Source: Haloarcula pelagica
GTDB taxonomy: Archaea > Halobacteriota > Halobacteria > Halobacteriales > Haloarculaceae
Reading direction: 5' to 3'
Length of the DNA: 64,000 bases
Assembly: GCF_030127105.1 (NCBI RefSeq)
Contig: NZ_CP126162.1
Location: 1-64,000, forward strand
Part shown: positions 1,037-9,365 of the stretch, one piece after another
How positions within the stretch are numbered: the first letter of the stretch is position 1
Layout of the letters: every line of letters begins with the position of its first letter
The notes under the pieces: generated by a model
Database searches by the model: none
Seen by the model: the letters and a program-made list of their open reading frames with translations, nothing else
Told to the model about the DNA's origin: nothing
Translations under genes and position numbers: made by a program

Positions 1037-2107
1037 ATGTCTTCCAGCGGCGTCCGATCGCACTCCCCGACCCTCATTACTGGGGTCGGAACGCTGCTGT
1101 TCGTCGCCGCGATCGTCCACCACATCACGGAACTGCTCGTCGTCGATTCGGTTCTCGCTCCGATCGCCGCGCTGATGCTGGACGTTCCCGCGGCCGTCGG
1201 GTTGATGTACGCCGGCCACTGGCTGTCGACGACCGATCTCGACCACCAGGAGCGCTGGACGGTGTGTGTCTGGTGTTTCGCCAGCCTCGTGCTGTTCGTG
1301 GCCGTCATCGCGGCGACGTTCGGCATCAGGCTCGCCGAGGGACGGCCCGTCTCCGAACCCGGCTTCTCGCTGCTGATCGCGGCCGAGGCCGGCGGCGTCG
1401 CCGGCTTCGTCGGCGGGTACTACAACGCCCGTGCCCGGGCGAGCGCTCGGCGCGCCACCACCGCCAGAAACGCGCTGGGCTTCGTCAACGAACTCATCCG
1501 ACACGATCTCCGGAACGATCTGAACGTGATCCACGGGCACGCCGACCTGCTGGCCCAGCGGGAAACCGGGCCGGACCCGGGCGACCCGACGGTCGTCCGT
1601 GAGAAATCGATGGAGGCGCTGACACGCATCGAGACGAGCCGTGCGATCGCCGACACGCTCCTCAGCGACCCCGACCTCGACGCCGTCGATGTCGTCCCGA
1701 TCGTCCACGAGATCACCGAGCAGTTCGACGAGGCCTTCCGGGCGACGGTCACGTCCGACCTCCCGGAGCGCGCGGTCGTCACCGCCAACGCCGGCGTCCG
1801 GTCGGTGATCGACAACCTCGTCGAGAACGCGATCGAACACAACGACACGGCCGAGCCACGCGTCGACGTGACGGTCGTGAGCGGCCCGAACACCGTCAGG
1901 ATCGCGGTCGCCGACAACGGATCAGGTATCCCACCGGACCGGCGAGCGGACCTGTTACACCCCGAGACGACCGACGAGGGCGGTGGCCTCTCGCTCGTCT
2001 CGACGCTCGTCGACAACTTCGGTGGGGAGATCAGCCTCGGGGAGTCGGCGTGGGGCGGGGCCGCCGTCGAAGTGACGCTCCCGGCCGCCGACTCGGACCC
2101 CGAATGA
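1037..2107 (+). CDS. Membrane-bound sensor histidine kinase
   Basis: The protein has 356 residues. About residues 12-130 form four or so membrane segments with no recognisable extracellular sensor domain. The phospho-acceptor region is FVNELIRHDLRNDL, with His156 as the expected phosphorylation site. The C-terminal ATPase domain shows the N box (NLVENAIEHND), G1 box (VADNGSGIP) and a GGGLSL G2-like segment. It would autophosphorylate and pass phosphate to a receiver protein. No cognate receiver is adjacent; a receiver-PAS protein lies near 10 kb. The 7-TM-like N-terminus followed by HisKA is common in haloarchaeal orphan kinases. The signal is unknown. Confidence 0.88.
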   Translation: MSSSGVRSHSPTLITGVGTLLFVAAIVHHITELLVVDSVLAPIAALMLDVPAAVGLMYAGHWLSTTDLDHQERWTVCVWCFASLVLFVAVIAATFGIRLAEGRPVSEPGFSLLIAAEAGGVAGFVGGYYNARARASARRATTARNALGFVNELIRHDLRNDLNVIHGHADLLAQRETGPDPGDPTVVREKSMEALTRIETSRAIADTLLSDPDLDAVDVVPIVHEITEQFDEAFRATVTSDLPERAVVTANAGVRSVIDNLVENAIEHNDTAEPRVDVTVVSGPNTVRIAVADNGSGIPPDRRADLLHPETTDEGGGLSLVSTLVDNFGGEISLGESAWGGAAVEVTLPAADSDPE

Positions 2108-3536: not shown

Positions 3537-5036
3537 TCACTGCTCGTCGGCTGTGATGTCCGTCGCCAGCGGGAGTTCGACGACGAACTCCGCACCCTCG
3601 TCGCCGTCGACGACCCGGACCTCGCCGCCGTACTTCTCGACCAGGTTGTCGACCAGATACAGCCCCAGGCCAGTGCCGGAACTCTCCAGCCCCTTCTCGC
3701 CGCGACCGAAGATTTCCTGCTTGCGCTCGTCGGGGACGCCAGGGCCGTTGTCGGCGATCCGCACCTCGGCGACCTCTTCGCCCGTCGACGCGGAGACGGT
3801 CACTCTGGGGACCTCGGAGTCGTTGTGCTGGATCCCGTTGGCGATGATGTTCCGGAAGACAGAGGAGAGGAGTTCGTCCGCGACCACCGCGGTATCCGGG
3901 AGCGTCTCCTCGACGGTGACGACCGCTCTGTCGTAGGCCGACCCGACCTCGTCGACCTGCGCTTCCAGCACGGGCCGCAGTGAGACCGTCGTCAGTTCCT
4001 CGTGGCCCGACAGCATCGTCTCTGTCAGGTCCCGTGCCTGCCGGGTGAGGTCGACGACGTGCTGGCCGCTCTCTGCGAGTCGGTCCAGATACTGCATCCC
4101 CTCGTCGTCGACGTACCCGTGCAACACGTCGGCCATGCCGAGGATGACCTGCATGTCGTTTCGGATGTCGTGGCGGGTGACCTGGTTCAGGATCTCCAGG
4201 TTCCGGGTCTGTTCGCGGAGTTCGGCCTCGCGGCGCTGCTGGACCGTCACGTCCTGGATCGCGCCGACGATCCCGCTGTTGCCGTCCCGGCTGTAGCCGT
4301 GTCGTTCCACGACAACGTCGCGCTGTTCGCCGCCGAGTTCGACGGTCAGTTCCAGTCGTTCGCTGCCCCCGCCGTCGAGCAGTTCTGCCTCCGCCGCGTC
4401 ACAGACCTCGGCGAGTTCCGGCTGGAACTCCGCGGTCCGACTGCCGATGATCGCGTCCCGGTCCCGGTCGACGAAGGACGCGAACGCGTCGTTACAGGCG
4501 ACGTACCGACCCGTCTCGTCTTTGAGAAACGCGGGGATCGGAACACAGTCGAGGACCGCAGACAGCCGCGCGTCCGCGTGTCGGCGGGCACTCAGTGCGT
4601 CCCGGAAGCGGTCGGCAAACGACGGCGGTTGAGTCTCGGTCGCGCCGGCCGTGTGCTCGATCGCCGACGCGACACGCGGCGGTCCGCCCTGTGGCGGCGC
4701 GCGTTCCACGTAGTCGGTGGCACCGGCTTCGAGGCCGTCGACGACGGTCTCGGGTGCCGTCTCGGTAGCAGCGATCAGCAATACCGCCCCGATACCGTCG
4801 AGCGCATCGACGCCGACCGACGGTTCGAGGTCGAGCGTCGCGAGGTCCAGCGCGACGACATCCACGGCGGCGCCGACGGCGTCGACCGTCTCGACCCGCC
4901 CGAGTTCGGTTTCTCCGAGGTGAGAACGGGTCCGGTCGACGTAGTGCTCGTCACGACTCAGAACGACCGCCTGACGCGCGTCCATGGTCCGTTCGGAATC
5001 CAGCACTGCAGCACCGTCAATGTGTCTGTCAGCCAT
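3537..5036 (-). CDS. PAS-domain histidine kinase with receiver-like N-terminus
   Basis: The ATG at 5036 overlaps the end of the upstream kinase gene by 8 bases, which supports this start (GTG at 5048 and ATG at 4985 are alternatives). Residues 15-115 resemble a degenerate receiver or Rossmann fold (ALDLATLDLEP, GATDYVERAPP) without a convincing phospho-Asp pocket. A PAS domain follows (FLKDETGRYVACNDAF). The phospho-acceptor is LNQVTRHDIRNDMQV. The ATPase domain shows NIIANGIQHND, IADNGPGVP and GTGLGLYLV. This is the third gene of an operon with the KaiC-like ATPase and the LOV kinase, so it probably acts in the same signalling chain. Confidence 0.88.
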   Translation of the reverse strand: MADRHIDGAAVLDSERTMDARQAVVLSRDEHYVDRTRSHLGETELGRVETVDAVGAAVDVVALDLATLDLEPSVGVDALDGIGAVLLIAATETAPETVVDGLEAGATDYVERAPPQGGPPRVASAIEHTAGATETQPPSFADRFRDALSARRHADARLSAVLDCVPIPAFLKDETGRYVACNDAFASFVDRDRDAIIGSRTAEFQPELAEVCDAAEAELLDGGGSERLELTVELGGEQRDVVVERHGYSRDGNSGIVGAIQDVTVQQRREAELREQTRNLEILNQVTRHDIRNDMQVILGMADVLHGYVDDEGMQYLDRLAESGQHVVDLTRQARDLTETMLSGHEELTTVSLRPVLEAQVDEVGSAYDRAVVTVEETLPDTAVVADELLSSVFRNIIANGIQHNDSEVPRVTVSASTGEEVAEVRIADNGPGVPDERKQEIFGRGEKGLESSGTGLGLYLVDNLVEKYGGEVRVVDGDEGAEFVVELPLATDITADEQ

Positions 5037-6891
5037 CCGTTTCGACACTGCGCCGGAGGTACAACGTCACGACCCCACCGTCGTCGGTGTTCTCGACAGA
5101 GAGCCCGCCGCCGGCGTTCTCGACGGCCCACTTGACGAGCCAGAGCCGGATGCCCTGCGTGTGTTCCAGGGGGGACTCGCTGCCGGCGTCCAGTGCCGAG
5201 CGCTCGATCTCCGAGAACGCCATCCCAGGGAACCGCACGGCCAGTTCGACGGAGGGGCTCGGCGGCTCGTCGGTGACCTGCAACGAGACCTGCCCGGCCG
5301 GGGCACCCCACTTCCCGACGGCGTGTTCGACGAGTTGTTCGAGACACAGTTCCAGTTGTGCGGGACAGATCGCGCTCGCGGCGGGCGCGCCCGCCACGGT
5401 GAACTCGACGCCAGGGTACACCGCCCGGAGGTCCCCGACTGCCGACCGAACGAGGGTCGGCACGTCGAGTGGGACACTCGACTGGTCCGGATCACTGCCC
5501 AGATGGAACTGTCTCACCGCGTCGGCGGTGTCGAGCAGTTCGTCGGAGGCGGTCTGGATCGCTTCCGCGGCCTCGCTGATCGACGCCGGGTCCATCTCCT
5601 CGGCGTTGGCCGCGACGTGTTCGGCACGGCCGGAGACCACGGTCAGCTTGTTCCGGAAGTTGTGCCGGAGCACTCGATCCAGCACCGTCAGGCGTCCCTG
5701 CTGTGCGCGGATCGCGGAGATGTCGCGAGCGATCGCGATCACCCGGTCGCCCGCCGAGTCCGAGACCGACTCGTGTTCGAACTTCACCTGGAAGGTCCGG
5801 GACTGTCCGGTCGGGAGCGTGAGCGTGAGTTCCCGTTCCTGTGTCCGCCCCGTCTCGACGACGACCCGGCAGGCACGCCGGACGACCGACGCCTGCTCCG
5901 ACGGGAGGATATCGGTCAACGCGGTCGTCGGCGTCGCACGAAAGTCCACCTCGAACACGTCTGTCGCCGCGGCGTTCGCGTGGACCACGGTCGTGTCGGC
6001 ACGGAGCACGACGACCGGGTCGCTGACCGACTCGAAGACGTGTTCGTACTGTTCGAGCAGGCGTTTCCGCTCGATCTGCTCGGTCACGTCCTGCTGGAAC
6101 CCCAGGAAGTGCGTCACCGTCCCTGCGTCGTCGTAGACGGGCACGATATCCAGTTGGTTCCAGAACGCCTCGCCGTCGCGCCGGTAGTTGCGGATGACGA
6201 CCGACACCGATTCCCTGGCGTCGATTGCCGTCCGGATCTCGGCCACCGTCGATTCGTCGGTCCCCTCCCCCTGGAGGAACCGACAGTTCCGACCCAGGGC
6301 GTCGGGCAGCGAGTAGCCGGTTATGTCGACGAACCCCTGGTTGACGTATATCAGGTGTTCGTCCTCGGCCTGTGCGTCGGCGATGCTGATACCGATGTCG
6401 GCGTTGTCCATCGCCCGGCCGTACAGTTCGAGGCGCTTCCAGCGCTGTGACGCGATGAGCGAGTACTGACGGATCGCGACGAGGCCGTCGACGCGGGCCC
6501 GGATGGCGCGTTTCGACGACGGAATCGTCAGGATCCCGTCCAGCGCCCGCCCCAGCGAGTCACCGTATCGGGACCAGGGATCGGGGACGCTCTCGGGGAC
6601 CAACAGCAAGACCGGCGCCATCGTCGGCCGCTGCTCGCGTTTCCACTCGCGGAGGCGGTCGCGACACTCCGGGAACGCCTCGGCGCTGACCACGCAGATG
6701 TCGGTCGCGTCCGGAACGGCACCCTCTAGATGTCGGACCTCGTACGCCGACAGCGTCGTGGTCAAAAGGTCCCGGTCTCGTCCCGCCGGAGCGGCGAGGG
6801 TGACCGTTGTCGCCGCCGTCTCCGGAAGGGGGACTGCGCCGCCCGCGCTATCACCGCTCGTGATCCAGTTTGGCGAGCGGTCACCGGACAT
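5029..6891 (-). CDS. LOV-PAS histidine kinase (blue-light-sensor type)
   Basis: The protein has 620 residues. Residues 30-140 look like a degenerate receiver. Residues about 155-275 form a PAS domain of the LOV class: the flavin-binding motif GRNCRFLQGEGTD is complete, with Cys203 placed to form the photo-adduct, and FWNQLDIVPVYDD matches the second flavin-contact strand. A second PAS domain (about 285-395) follows. The phospho-acceptor is VLRHNFRNKLTVV. The C-terminal ATPase domain is weak: its G boxes are poorly conserved. The start codon ATG shares one base with the TGA of the KaiC-like gene, and its own end overlaps the next kinase. LOV chemistry is known for the family; light sensing here is inferred. 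Confidence 0.88.
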   Translation of the reverse strand: MSGDRSPNWITSGDSAGGAVPLPETAATTVTLAAPAGRDRDLLTTTLSAYEVRHLEGAVPDATDICVVSAEAFPECRDRLREWKREQRPTMAPVLLLVPESVPDPWSRYGDSLGRALDGILTIPSSKRAIRARVDGLVAIRQYSLIASQRWKRLELYGRAMDNADIGISIADAQAEDEHLIYVNQGFVDITGYSLPDALGRNCRFLQGEGTDESTVAEIRTAIDARESVSVVIRNYRRDGEAFWNQLDIVPVYDDAGTVTHFLGFQQDVTEQIERKRLLEQYEHVFESVSDPVVVLRADTTVVHANAAATDVFEVDFRATPTTALTDILPSEQASVVRRACRVVVETGRTQERELTLTLPTGQSRTFQVKFEHESVSDSAGDRVIAIARDISAIRAQQGRLTVLDRVLRHNFRNKLTVVSGRAEHVAANAEEMDPASISEAAEAIQTASDELLDTADAVRQFHLGSDPDQSSVPLDVPTLVRSAVGDLRAVYPGVEFTVAGAPAASAICPAQLELCLEQLVEHAVGKWGAPAGQVSLQVTDEPPSPSVELAVRFPGMAFSEIERSALDAGSESPLEHTQGIRLWLVKWAVENAGGGLSVENTDDGGVVTLYLRRSVETDG

Positions 6892-8348
6892 CAGTCTCCC
6901 TCGTCGACTCGTTCGGGCACGCCGGTCAGCACGCCGCGATACCCCTCCAGCGGCGGTCCAACGTCGATGCCGTCGGGGCCGAGATCGAACGCCCTGATCG
7001 TCTGCTCGAACGCCCCGTAGCGCTTTTTCAGGACCCCGACGACCTTCCGGACCTCGCCGTCCAGTTCCACGTACCGGAGAAACACGATGTTGTCCGCGAG
7101 GTAACTGATCGCCTCGTCCGATGCCATCAGGTCGCCCGTGACGGTTCCGATCTCGTCGAGCAGGAACGTCGTCACGCCCATCCGCTTGAGATACCGACAG
7201 AGTGCGTGGAGTTCCCTGGTGAGTTGGTCCTGTGAATCGCCGCCGCGGAGCCCCAGTCGGTAGCCGGAGATGCCGTCGATCACTACCATCCTCGCGCCGT
7301 CCTCCTCGACGGCTGTCCTGACCGTGTCGGCGAACTCGTCCGGGCTCCGGGTCAGCGACTCGACCTCTGTCAGCAGCAACTCGCCCGACTCGACCAGTTC
7401 ATCGATCCCGATGCCCAGTTGCTCGGTCCGATAGCGAAAGTCCGACGCGAGTTCCTCGAACAGGAACCCGTGTGGTGTCTCTCCCCGCTGGGCGGCCGCC
7501 CGCAGGAACACCGTCGCCAGCGTCGTCTTCCCGACCCCAGACGGGCCGGAGATCAACGTCACCGAACCGCGCTGTACCCCGCCACCGAGCAGGCTGTCGA
7601 GCGCGTCGATCCCCGACCCGATCTGCTCGCGGGGGACCTCCCGCTGGTGATCGCCGGGGACCAGTTTCGGGTACACCCGACCGCCCGTCTCCGACCGGAT
7701 CCGGTACGTGTGCCTGCCCCCGGCGTAGCCCGAGCCACGGAACTTCGTCACTTCCAGGCTCCGGTGGTCCGTGGTCCGGCGAATCTCGATCGCCGCGTCG
7801 CCGAGAAACTGCACGTCCCGCTCTTCGGCCTCGCTGGTCACCTGTGCGGTACAGACCGTGGTGATCGACCGCTCTTTGAGCGCGTTGGCGAGCGAGGAGA
7901 TGTGCCGGCGGAACTGATAGTCGTCGGGCAACAGCGCGCGCAGTTCGGTCAGCGGGTCGATCACCAGTCGGTCGGGCGACTCCTGGTCGATCGCGTCCGC
8001 GATCTGCCCGATGAGTTCGTCGCCCTCCGCCTGGCCGGGCGACAGGACGGAGTAACTCTGATCGCTGAAAAACCGCGATCCCTGCTCGCTGAGATCCAGG
8101 ATGACGACGCCCGAGAGATCGATCCCGAGCGCGGCGGCGTTCCTGCGGAGGTCGTCCGCCCGCTCTTCGAATCCGACGTACAGGCCCGTCTCGCCGGCGG
8201 CCAGAAACTGCAACGCGAGAATCGTCTTGCCGGTCCCCGGGCCACCGTTGACGATCGCTGTCTGTCCGCGGAGGAAGCCACCCTGCAACACGGTATCGAG
8301 GCCGGATGTCCCCGACGGGACTCGCTCGACATCGACGGAATCTGCCAT
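6891..8348 (-). CDS. KaiC-like double RecA-domain ATPase
   Basis: The 485 residues hold two KaiC/RecA domains. The first has Walker A GGPGTGKT (35-42), a catalytic Glu pair in GFEERADDL and Walker B RLVIDPLTE. The second has Walker A SGPSGVGKTT (268-277), FEELASDF and Walker B MVVIDGISG. The C-terminus aligns by eye with the end of cyanobacterial KaiC CII: S415-Y416 falls where KaiC has phosphosites S431-T432. The start at 8348 follows an AT-rich patch; the frame continues upstream only as the shifted frame of the reductase gene. It leads a three-gene operon with two histidine kinases. No KaiB is nearby, so a clock role is not implied. Confidence 0.9.
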   Translation of the reverse strand: MADSVDVERVPSGTSGLDTVLQGGFLRGQTAIVNGGPGTGKTILALQFLAAGETGLYVGFEERADDLRRNAAALGIDLSGVVILDLSEQGSRFFSDQSYSVLSPGQAEGDELIGQIADAIDQESPDRLVIDPLTELRALLPDDYQFRRHISSLANALKERSITTVCTAQVTSEAEERDVQFLGDAAIEIRRTTDHRSLEVTKFRGSGYAGGRHTYRIRSETGGRVYPKLVPGDHQREVPREQIGSGIDALDSLLGGGVQRGSVTLISGPSGVGKTTLATVFLRAAAQRGETPHGFLFEELASDFRYRTEQLGIGIDELVESGELLLTEVESLTRSPDEFADTVRTAVEEDGARMVVIDGISGYRLGLRGGDSQDQLTRELHALCRYLKRMGVTTFLLDEIGTVTGDLMASDEAISYLADNIVFLRYVELDGEVRKVVGVLKKRYGAFEQTIRAFDLGPDGIDVGPPLEGYRGVLTGVPERVDEGD

Positions 8349-8404
8349 ACGTACACAAGGAGGGGTGACCAGTGATAAAACCTCTCGCCGTCCGGCGACC
8401 GCCA

Positions 8405-9239
8405 CTACAGCGGGAACGACCGAACGATGCCCGTGAGGCGGTTCCGGAGGCGACGGCCCAGGCTGCCGGTCAGTTCGTGGATTCGATCCATCTCCGCGGG
8501 GGACAGTTCGAAGTCGAAGACGGCGAGGTTCGTTTCGAGGTGGTCGCGGCCCCGGGCTTTCGGAATCGCGACGACCTGTTCCTGCTGGACGAGCCACCTG
8601 AGTGCGACCTGCGCCGGGTGCTTGTCGTACCGGTCGCCGATCGACGCGAGCACCTCGTCGTCGAGCACGTCGCCCTGTGCCAGCGGGCTGTACGCCGTCA
8701 GCGCCAACCCGTTTTCCGTACAATACTGCTGGAGTTCGCGCTGGTCCTTGTAGGGGTGGTACTCCACCTGATCGGTGACGATCGGTACGTCGACGGCGGT
8801 GCGTGCGTCGGCGAAGCTGTCTGCGGGTGAAGTTGCTGACACCGAGGTGCCTGACCAGGCCGTCGGCACGGAGGTCGGCCATCGCACCGAGCGTCTCCTC
8901 GACCGGGACTCGTGGGTGGGGCCAGTGGATCAGCAACAGGTCGACGGTGTCGAACCCCAGGCGGTCCAGACCCGCCCGGGCCGCGCGCCGGACATCGTCG
9001 GCGCGGAGGTTCGACCGCCACACCTTGGTCGTCACGAACACGTCGTCCCTGTCGACCGGCGACGCCGCGATGGCGTCCCCGACGGCTGCCTCGTTCTCGT
9101 AGTACTCGGCCGTGTCGACGTGGCGATACCCCAGGTCCAGTGCCGTCCGAACGGCCTCACGGCATTCCCGCTCGTCCATCTGAAACGTTCCCAACCCGAG
9201 CGCCGGAACCGTGGCGTCGCCGGCGGAGACGTGTTCCAT
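8405..9239 (-). pseudogene. Aldo/keto reductase, single frameshift
   Basis: The first frame begins at ATG 9239 with GLGTFQMDE, the catalytic HVDTAEYYENE (Asp and Tyr) and LLLIHWPHP. The match breaks after GVSNFTRRQL at about 8810-8819. It resumes one frame over with ARTAVDVPIVTDQVEYHPY and runs through AVFDFELSPAEMDRI to the stop at 8405. Removing one base would give a normal 277-residue reductase. The family reduces aldehydes and ketones with NADPH. All other motifs are intact, so the break may be a recent mutation or a sequence error. It lies just upstream of the KaiC operon on the same strand. Confidence 0.85.
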
Positions 9240-9365
9240 ACGCCTGCTACGGCGGGCAGCGAAGAGTATGTGACGCCCTCTCCCGAGAGTGGCTCACAGG
9301 GTCGCTCAGTCACGGTTTGAGCGACAGCCGCCTTTAGGTGTGTGGTGTGAGTAGGCCGAACTACG

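Follow-up and report, generated by a model that had tools for sequence, protein, structure and literature searches.

The window analyzed here, the first 64,000 nucleotides of contig NZ_CP126162.1 of Haloarcula pelagica, contains three consecutive minus-strand genes. These encode a double-RecA KaiC-like ATPase (6891..8348, 485 aa), a protein that joins a pseudo-receiver (PsR), a LOV domain, a PAS domain, an H-box and a degenerate ATPase domain (5029..6891, 620 aa, assigned from its translation, Pfam, NCBIfam, an AlphaFold2 model and Foldseek; hereafter the LOV protein), and an intact PAS-HisKA-HATPase histidine kinase (3537..4985; hereafter the third gene). The three genes and their order are as given in the original prediction, made from this DNA alone, and its double-RecA KaiC-like ATPase is confirmed by two Pfam KaiC domains (E 5.6e-69). 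It had also described head-to-tail overlaps, and here the outcome is divided: the TGATG joining KaiC to the LOV gene is exact (stop 6893-6891, ATG 6891-6889), but the 8-base overlap of the third gene is probably not real. That overlap requires a start at ATG 5036, which exists in the sequence; the third-gene proteins of Haloarcula halophila and Haloarcula sp. GH36 start 32 nt past the LOV stop (MEGCQAVVFS...), and the extension upstream of that start is out of frame in both, so that the matching start in the window, ATG 4985 (MDARQAVVLS..., 43 nt from the LOV gene), is better supported than ATG 5036 or a further alternative, GTG 5048.

Close junctions between KaiC and its partner recur in relatives, where the partner starts roughly -22 to +33 bases from the KaiC stop almost without exception, often through a TGATG or ATGA-type junction; the tight coupling is therefore not due to chance, and it leaves no intergenic space for a separate promoter 3' of KaiC. 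Upstream, a TATA-like box, TTTTATC (8374..8380, minus strand, a consensus reading), ends 25 nt before the KaiC ATG; it is kept 24 nt before the KaiC ATG in H. halophila, and similar A/T boxes precede the gene in many relatives. This placement fits a leaderless transcript that would begin at KaiC.

In the KaiC-like ATPase, the two Walker A motifs and the catalytic EE pair of each domain (E61/E62 and E298/E299) are kept in 18 relatives. In a full-length alignment to solved KaiC, Ser431 corresponds to Ser415 and Thr432 to Tyr416, the Tyr being invariant in the 18 nearest relatives. Scores fall far under the cut-offs of the clock-KaiC equivalogs (152 vs 546 bits for circ_KaiC, 259 vs 408 bits for PRK09302), and KaiB (PF07689) was found in 0 of 32 genomes of the genus in a search whose Synechococcus control was positive. 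A cyanobacterial-type clock is rejected on the absence of KaiB from the genus, the Thr432 to Tyr replacement and these profile scores.

The LOV protein begins with about 116 residues that match no Pfam family, Response_reg included. In its AlphaFold2 model (mean pLDDT 86.6) this region takes a CheY-like alpha/beta form, with the element order b-a-b-b-a-b-a-b-a at a pLDDT of about 92 in the whole-protein model; a profile built from it (PsR; 6466..6810, minus strand, approximately residues 28-142, E 8.5e-43 with profile A4) finds its best PDB match in residues 195-271 of PleD, a response regulator (E 1.5e-5). The phospho-acceptor position is Asp in 104 of 120 sequences and Ser in the window. Because most sequences in the alignment of relatives have lost the acid pair and nearly all have lost the Lys, we regard the domain as a pseudo-receiver; the window protein lacks the acid pair, the phospho-Asp, the Lys and the Response_reg match of a true receiver. 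The LOV domain that follows (6073..6444, minus strand) has matches to the YtvA, BluLightHisKinLov and NifL families and Foldseek matches to LOV structures at 45-50% identity; with its LOV fold and its GRNCRFLQ sequence, an instance of the GXNCRFLQ motif containing Cys203, it would be expected to bind flavin and respond to light. A second PAS domain (5713..6036, minus strand; Pfam PAS_4, residues 286-393) leads to the kinase core (5056..5664, minus strand), at whose start H-box His410 is kept.

It is in this core that the earlier description, a LOV-PAS histidine kinase with the full flavin motif, holds only for the LOV-PAS part and the motif. Alignments place His at the N-box Asn and Phe at the G1 Asp; the HATPase_c score is 13.0 bits against a Pfam cut-off of 26.4, and the 65 HATPase_c matches found genome-wide do not include this protein. 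The site has decayed in the orthologues as well (Asn to Arg and Asp to Val in H. halophila, likewise degenerate in GH36), and NCBI names both of them simply 'PAS domain-containing protein'. The kinase relay that had been proposed through this protein is thus unlikely in this copy, and contact control or acceptor-only phosphotransfer becomes likelier than a relay.

Conservation of adjacency had been set as a test that could refute the prediction. A search of 392 genomes from the order with the KaiC-like ATPase (P0001) gave matches in 227 (E <= 1e-60), and the neighborhoods of 116 double KaiCs were inspected. A kinase gene adjoins 93 of the 116, with one further frameshifted case (L034); it lies downstream on the same strand in 77, divergently in 15 and upstream in 1, and a LOV or LOV-like domain is present in 55 of these 93 linked kinases. 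The pairing of KaiC with a LOV protein extends over many genera and several families, down to a KaiC identity of about 46%, and so this part of the predicted adjacency is conserved; the third gene, by contrast, is syntenic only in three Haloarcula replicons, those of the window, H. halophila and GH36, and a conserved three-gene unit is rejected. On the KaiC tree the window gene falls in a 13-row clade (SH-aLRT 100) nested in 28-row (99) and 41-row (98) clades, the linked kinases of which are all LOV or LOV-like, and the divergent arrangement forms a second LOV-rich clade; in these genomes LOV is a recurrent attachment to the KaiC module. Distances between KaiCs track those between the linked LOV domains (r 0.67) and between the linked kinase domains (r 0.81), and 0 of 2000 permutations reached values as high; species relatedness alone can produce such a correlation.

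A far more regular association is evident for the pseudo-receiver. It is N-terminal in 93 of 93 KaiC-linked kinases, with or without LOV, and its profile also matches genes with no recognized kinase domain directly beside KaiCs that have no linked kinase; with an iterated profile, a PsR adjoins 112 of the 116 double KaiCs. Iteration shifts the profile slightly in the direction of true receivers, and the iterated version was used for that last figure only; the uniterated profile or A4 stands behind the 93/93 count and the genome counts that follow, and the PsR profile was built mainly from LOV-linked members. Eleven whole genomes gave 20 PsR matches, or 18 places once redundant contig ends are subtracted, each of them next to a double KaiC, and no double KaiC listed in these genomes lacks an adjoining PsR. 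Across the 392 genomes, 223 contain both KaiC and PsR, 4 KaiC only, 15 PsR only and 150 neither (Fisher p 1.6e-84, kinship ignored). At the level of single matches, 102 of 115 PsR domains listed in genomes with a listed KaiC adjoin a KaiC (96 by coordinates, 6 beside an unlisted KaiC). Could a generic receiver profile cause this co-occurrence? In each genome 47-83 first-look candidates were scored, with matches confined to those linked to KaiC, and this explanation was rejected. Unlinked LOV kinases gave no match to the first PsR profile except for two (L140 and L141). From this comparison, PsR, and not LOV or the kinase, is the constant partner of the double KaiC.

Outside the order a PsR gene occurs next to or near two single-domain KaiCs and one double KaiC, whereas other PsR-like matches there have no such neighbor. 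A contig assigned to Lyngbya sp. CCAP 1446/10 (45.7% GC; L192) carries a double KaiC of haloarchaeal type (40% identity) not far from a PsR kinase; horizontal transfer or a mislabelled contig is possible, and this was the one locus confirmed among the matches listed in a contig scan with the KaiC alignment. In H. pelagica itself there are three NCR-type LOV proteins, and a double KaiC adjoins two of them; another replicon carries a second KaiC-LOV locus (L064, C3 32000-46000; L063 in H. halophila), which has on one strand a kinase, KaiC, a PsR/LOV/PAS kinase with intact catalytic motifs, and a further kinase.

Loss of catalytic residues is concentrated in the LOV-linked proteins: 14 of the 55 lack the N-box Asn, as against 0 of the 38 other linked kinases (Fisher p 6e-4, a comparison that ignores phylogeny), and the KaiC tree calls for no fewer than 6 changes. 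The H-box His is retained wherever the region could be aligned. Among unlinked LOV kinases 17 of 18 keep the Asn, the exception (L140) being the closest unlinked homologue of the LOV protein (P0002).

Foldseek of the LOV-protein model returns NifL-NifA (9qq6, E 6e-28) as the top PDB match, followed by the Brucella LOV-HK 6ph4. NifL has a flavin-PAS, a PAS, an H and a GHKL domain, is devoid of phosphotransferase activity and binds the ATPase NifA directly to inhibit it (PMC12998174, PMC3466315). The NifL family profile TIGR02938 scores 81 bits against a cut-off of 242, through the LOV/PAS part only; by this analysis the LOV protein would be NifL-like in its working and not a member of the NifL family. 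We propose contact control of KaiC because the top structural match works by contact and because KaiA and CikA use pseudo-receivers in the KaiC system. Under this scheme, blue light would form a Cys203-flavin adduct, the resulting change would pass via the PAS domain and the dimeric H-box helices, and the PsR, the degenerate kinase core or both would contact KaiC and so change its ATPase activity or oligomeric state, in the manner of NifL with the ATPase NifA; the product of the third gene would serve as an accessory or output kinase. The chances seem to us about even that the operon is a haloarchaeal double-KaiC and PsR module with fused sensors, acting here as a light-gated, NifL-like regulator of a KaiC-family ATPase. 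More tentatively, we suggest that PsR is a previously undescribed family that serves as a dedicated docking subunit of haloarchaeal double KaiCs, to which exchangeable sensors are fused, and that its LOV-pseudokinase versions are kinase-free, NifL-like light switches acting directly on KaiC.

Several observations weigh against this NifL-like interpretation. Most relatives retain the N-box Asn of the LOV kinase, close ones included (L080, L081 and L083), so pseudokinase control cannot be the general rule and kinase decay is recurrent, not ancestral or universal; the test of N-box loss also takes no account of kinship. A sister lineage of linked proteins (L084, L090-L092, L094, L103, L109, L114, L120 and L133), most of which group together on the KaiC tree, has Pro in place of the LOV Cys, and adduct-type light sensing is therefore not universal to the module. 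Thirteen of the 115 listed PsR matches are orphan kinases with no adjoining KaiC, seven of them from one lineage (genus code g41); in the seven g41 genomes (L205-L211) the double KaiCs examined adjoin short PsR genes. Inhibition by NifL depends on nucleotide status, and the ATPase domain of the LOV protein may not bind nucleotide. Finally, the mechanism, including contact between PsR and KaiC, the direction of the signal and its output, is drawn from comparison of sequences and models.

Of the alternatives, the most probable is a phosphorelay in which the third-gene kinase phosphorylates His410 in trans and the LOV protein acts as a light-gated, Spo0B-like phosphotransfer protein towards KaiC or another regulator. 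The intact kinase gene lies directly downstream, and His410 and its H-box have outlasted the ATP site; yet that gene is linked only in the three Haloarcula replicons, for eight other degenerate LOV proteins (L035-L037, L039, L082, L084, L085 and L089) the 2.5 kb around KaiC contain no second kinase gene, the PsR lacks the acid pair and Lys, and the operon has no response regulator, so that we consider the relay unlikely. Less probable still is an ordinary light-regulated histidine kinase that binds ATP through a divergent site and autophosphorylates, with KaiC as regulator or target as with SasA or CikA: most KaiC-linked LOV kinases do keep all catalytic motifs, and the overall predicted fold is that of a LOV-PAS-HK, but the replacement of both the N-box Asn and the G1 Asp, in the window and in both orthologues, and the names NCBI gives those orthologues argue against it.

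A light-entrained timekeeper related to the cyanobacterial clock would account for a double KaiC with both catalytic Glu pairs and a Ser431 equivalent, for pseudo-receivers, which CikA and KaiA use as well (PMC12632262), and for the light-dependent cir expression and diurnal entrainment on record in haloarchaea (PMC3941300, PMC2675056); in view of the observations given above against a clock, and with no day/night expression difference in Haloquadratum (PMC5496347), we judge it very improbable. The least credible alternative is a chance neighborhood, a LOV sensor gene that happens to lie beside an unrelated KaiC-like gene on a plastic megaplasmid. Haloarchaeal plasmids are plastic, and the locus is on a secondary replicon of about 434 kb; the linkage nonetheless persists across genera and families, whether the partner lies downstream or is divergent, and the match between PsR and KaiC occurrence is nearly one to one.

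The original prediction drew a comparison with SasA, which misses the constant element, the N-terminal PsR; this domain is more like the pseudo-receivers found in KaiA and CikA than like the SasA domain. The latter is thioredoxin-like, and domain scans found none here. In cyanobacteria, the pseudo-receivers of CikA and KaiA, as well as sensor kinases, work on KaiC and KaiB or together with them (PMC12632262); the present genus differs in having no KaiB and in the N-terminal position of the PsR. NifL-NifA shares with our system the order flavin PAS, PAS, H and GHKL and, under the proposed scheme, the lack of phosphotransfer and contact control of an ATPase (PMC12998174, PMC3466315; PDB 9qq6), but NifL senses redox with FAD, lacks a pseudo-receiver and acts on an AAA+ activator instead of a RecA/KaiC protein. 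LOV-HKs (Brucella 6ph4; archaeal ALovD-1, PMC12202551) likewise place a LOV domain with GXNCRFLQ upstream of a histidine kinase core; they are described as kinases, in contrast to the degenerate ATP site in the window, and the ALovD-1 paper, which reports a photocycle of an archaeal LOV domain at salt concentrations up to 3 M, makes no mention of KaiC. In Haloferax volcanii the double KaiC gene cirC adjoins a sensor gene annotated fixL (PMC3941300); that report gives the adjacency only, with no LOV, pseudo-receiver or comparative analysis. In Alphaproteobacteria (Agrobacterium, Azospirillum, Roseomonas and plasmids of S. meliloti) a kinase gene also lies directly downstream of a double KaiC, but these KaiCs are 34-37% identical, with no LOV and, by the uniterated profile, no KaiC-linked PsR. 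A census of archaeal two-component systems does not mention LOV and treats KaiC in fusions (KaiC-REC, HalOD1-KaiC) (PMC5847659), and the authors of a 2025 review know of no published work on archaeal pseudo-receiver function (PMC12632262).

In the literature searched on KaiC with LOV, haloarchaea or pseudo-receivers we found no description of the linkage, a silence that is weak evidence of novelty; the PsR domain is apparently undescribed, though Makarova, Galperin and Koonin (2017) may contain prior notice of the PsR or LOV linkage. Those authors reportedly proposed archaeal KaiC-family ATPases as signalling hubs tied to two-component domains (cited in PMC5847659), and the present module fits that proposal.

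The third gene had been called a receiver-like PAS histidine kinase. The kinase is intact (HATPase_c 70.5 bits, HisKA 27.6 bits; H-box, N-box, G1 and G2 present), and the receiver-like N-terminus is not upheld: it has a pLDDT below 50 and no family match, and a profile search finds that it is not the KaiC-linked PsR. Its H. halophila orthologue (L193 8865-10324) is split into two overlapping ORFs, apparently by a frameshift, and is a single ORF in GH36. A fourth sensor kinase (1037-2107, plus strand; Pfam HisKA_4TM and HATPase_c) is convergent to the operon, and the order aldo/keto reductase, KaiC, LOV, kinase, convergent kinase is shared with H. halophila NZ_CP119560 (81% identity) and GH36 NZ_CP142028 (79%). 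The aldo/keto reductase gene (8405-9240, minus strand) is split by a frameshift in the window, which we ascribe to a sequencing or assembly error because the second copy, at the other end of the contig, is one A shorter there and contains a full ORF (L031 8326-9210). That copy belongs to a repeat: the first ~44.8 kb of the 478,761-bp contig (C2, 1-~44840) appear to recur at its end (433918-478761) with a few indels, as checked over 10.5 kb, which suggests a circular secondary replicon of about 434 kb. C3 has similar redundancy, which may inflate the contamination estimate. GC content is ~0.65-0.70 in the first 20 kb, where the operon lies, and 0.53-0.66 across ~20000-64000.

Together, these results bear on how signals reach archaeal KaiC-family ATPases, for which the near one-to-one linkage of PsR names a likely docking partner. 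The LOV versions add a controllable input, blue light, that makes an archaeal light-to-KaiC switch directly testable, and KaiC-linked LOV proteins have repeatedly lost kinase catalytic residues, which suggests that they can do without phosphotransfer.

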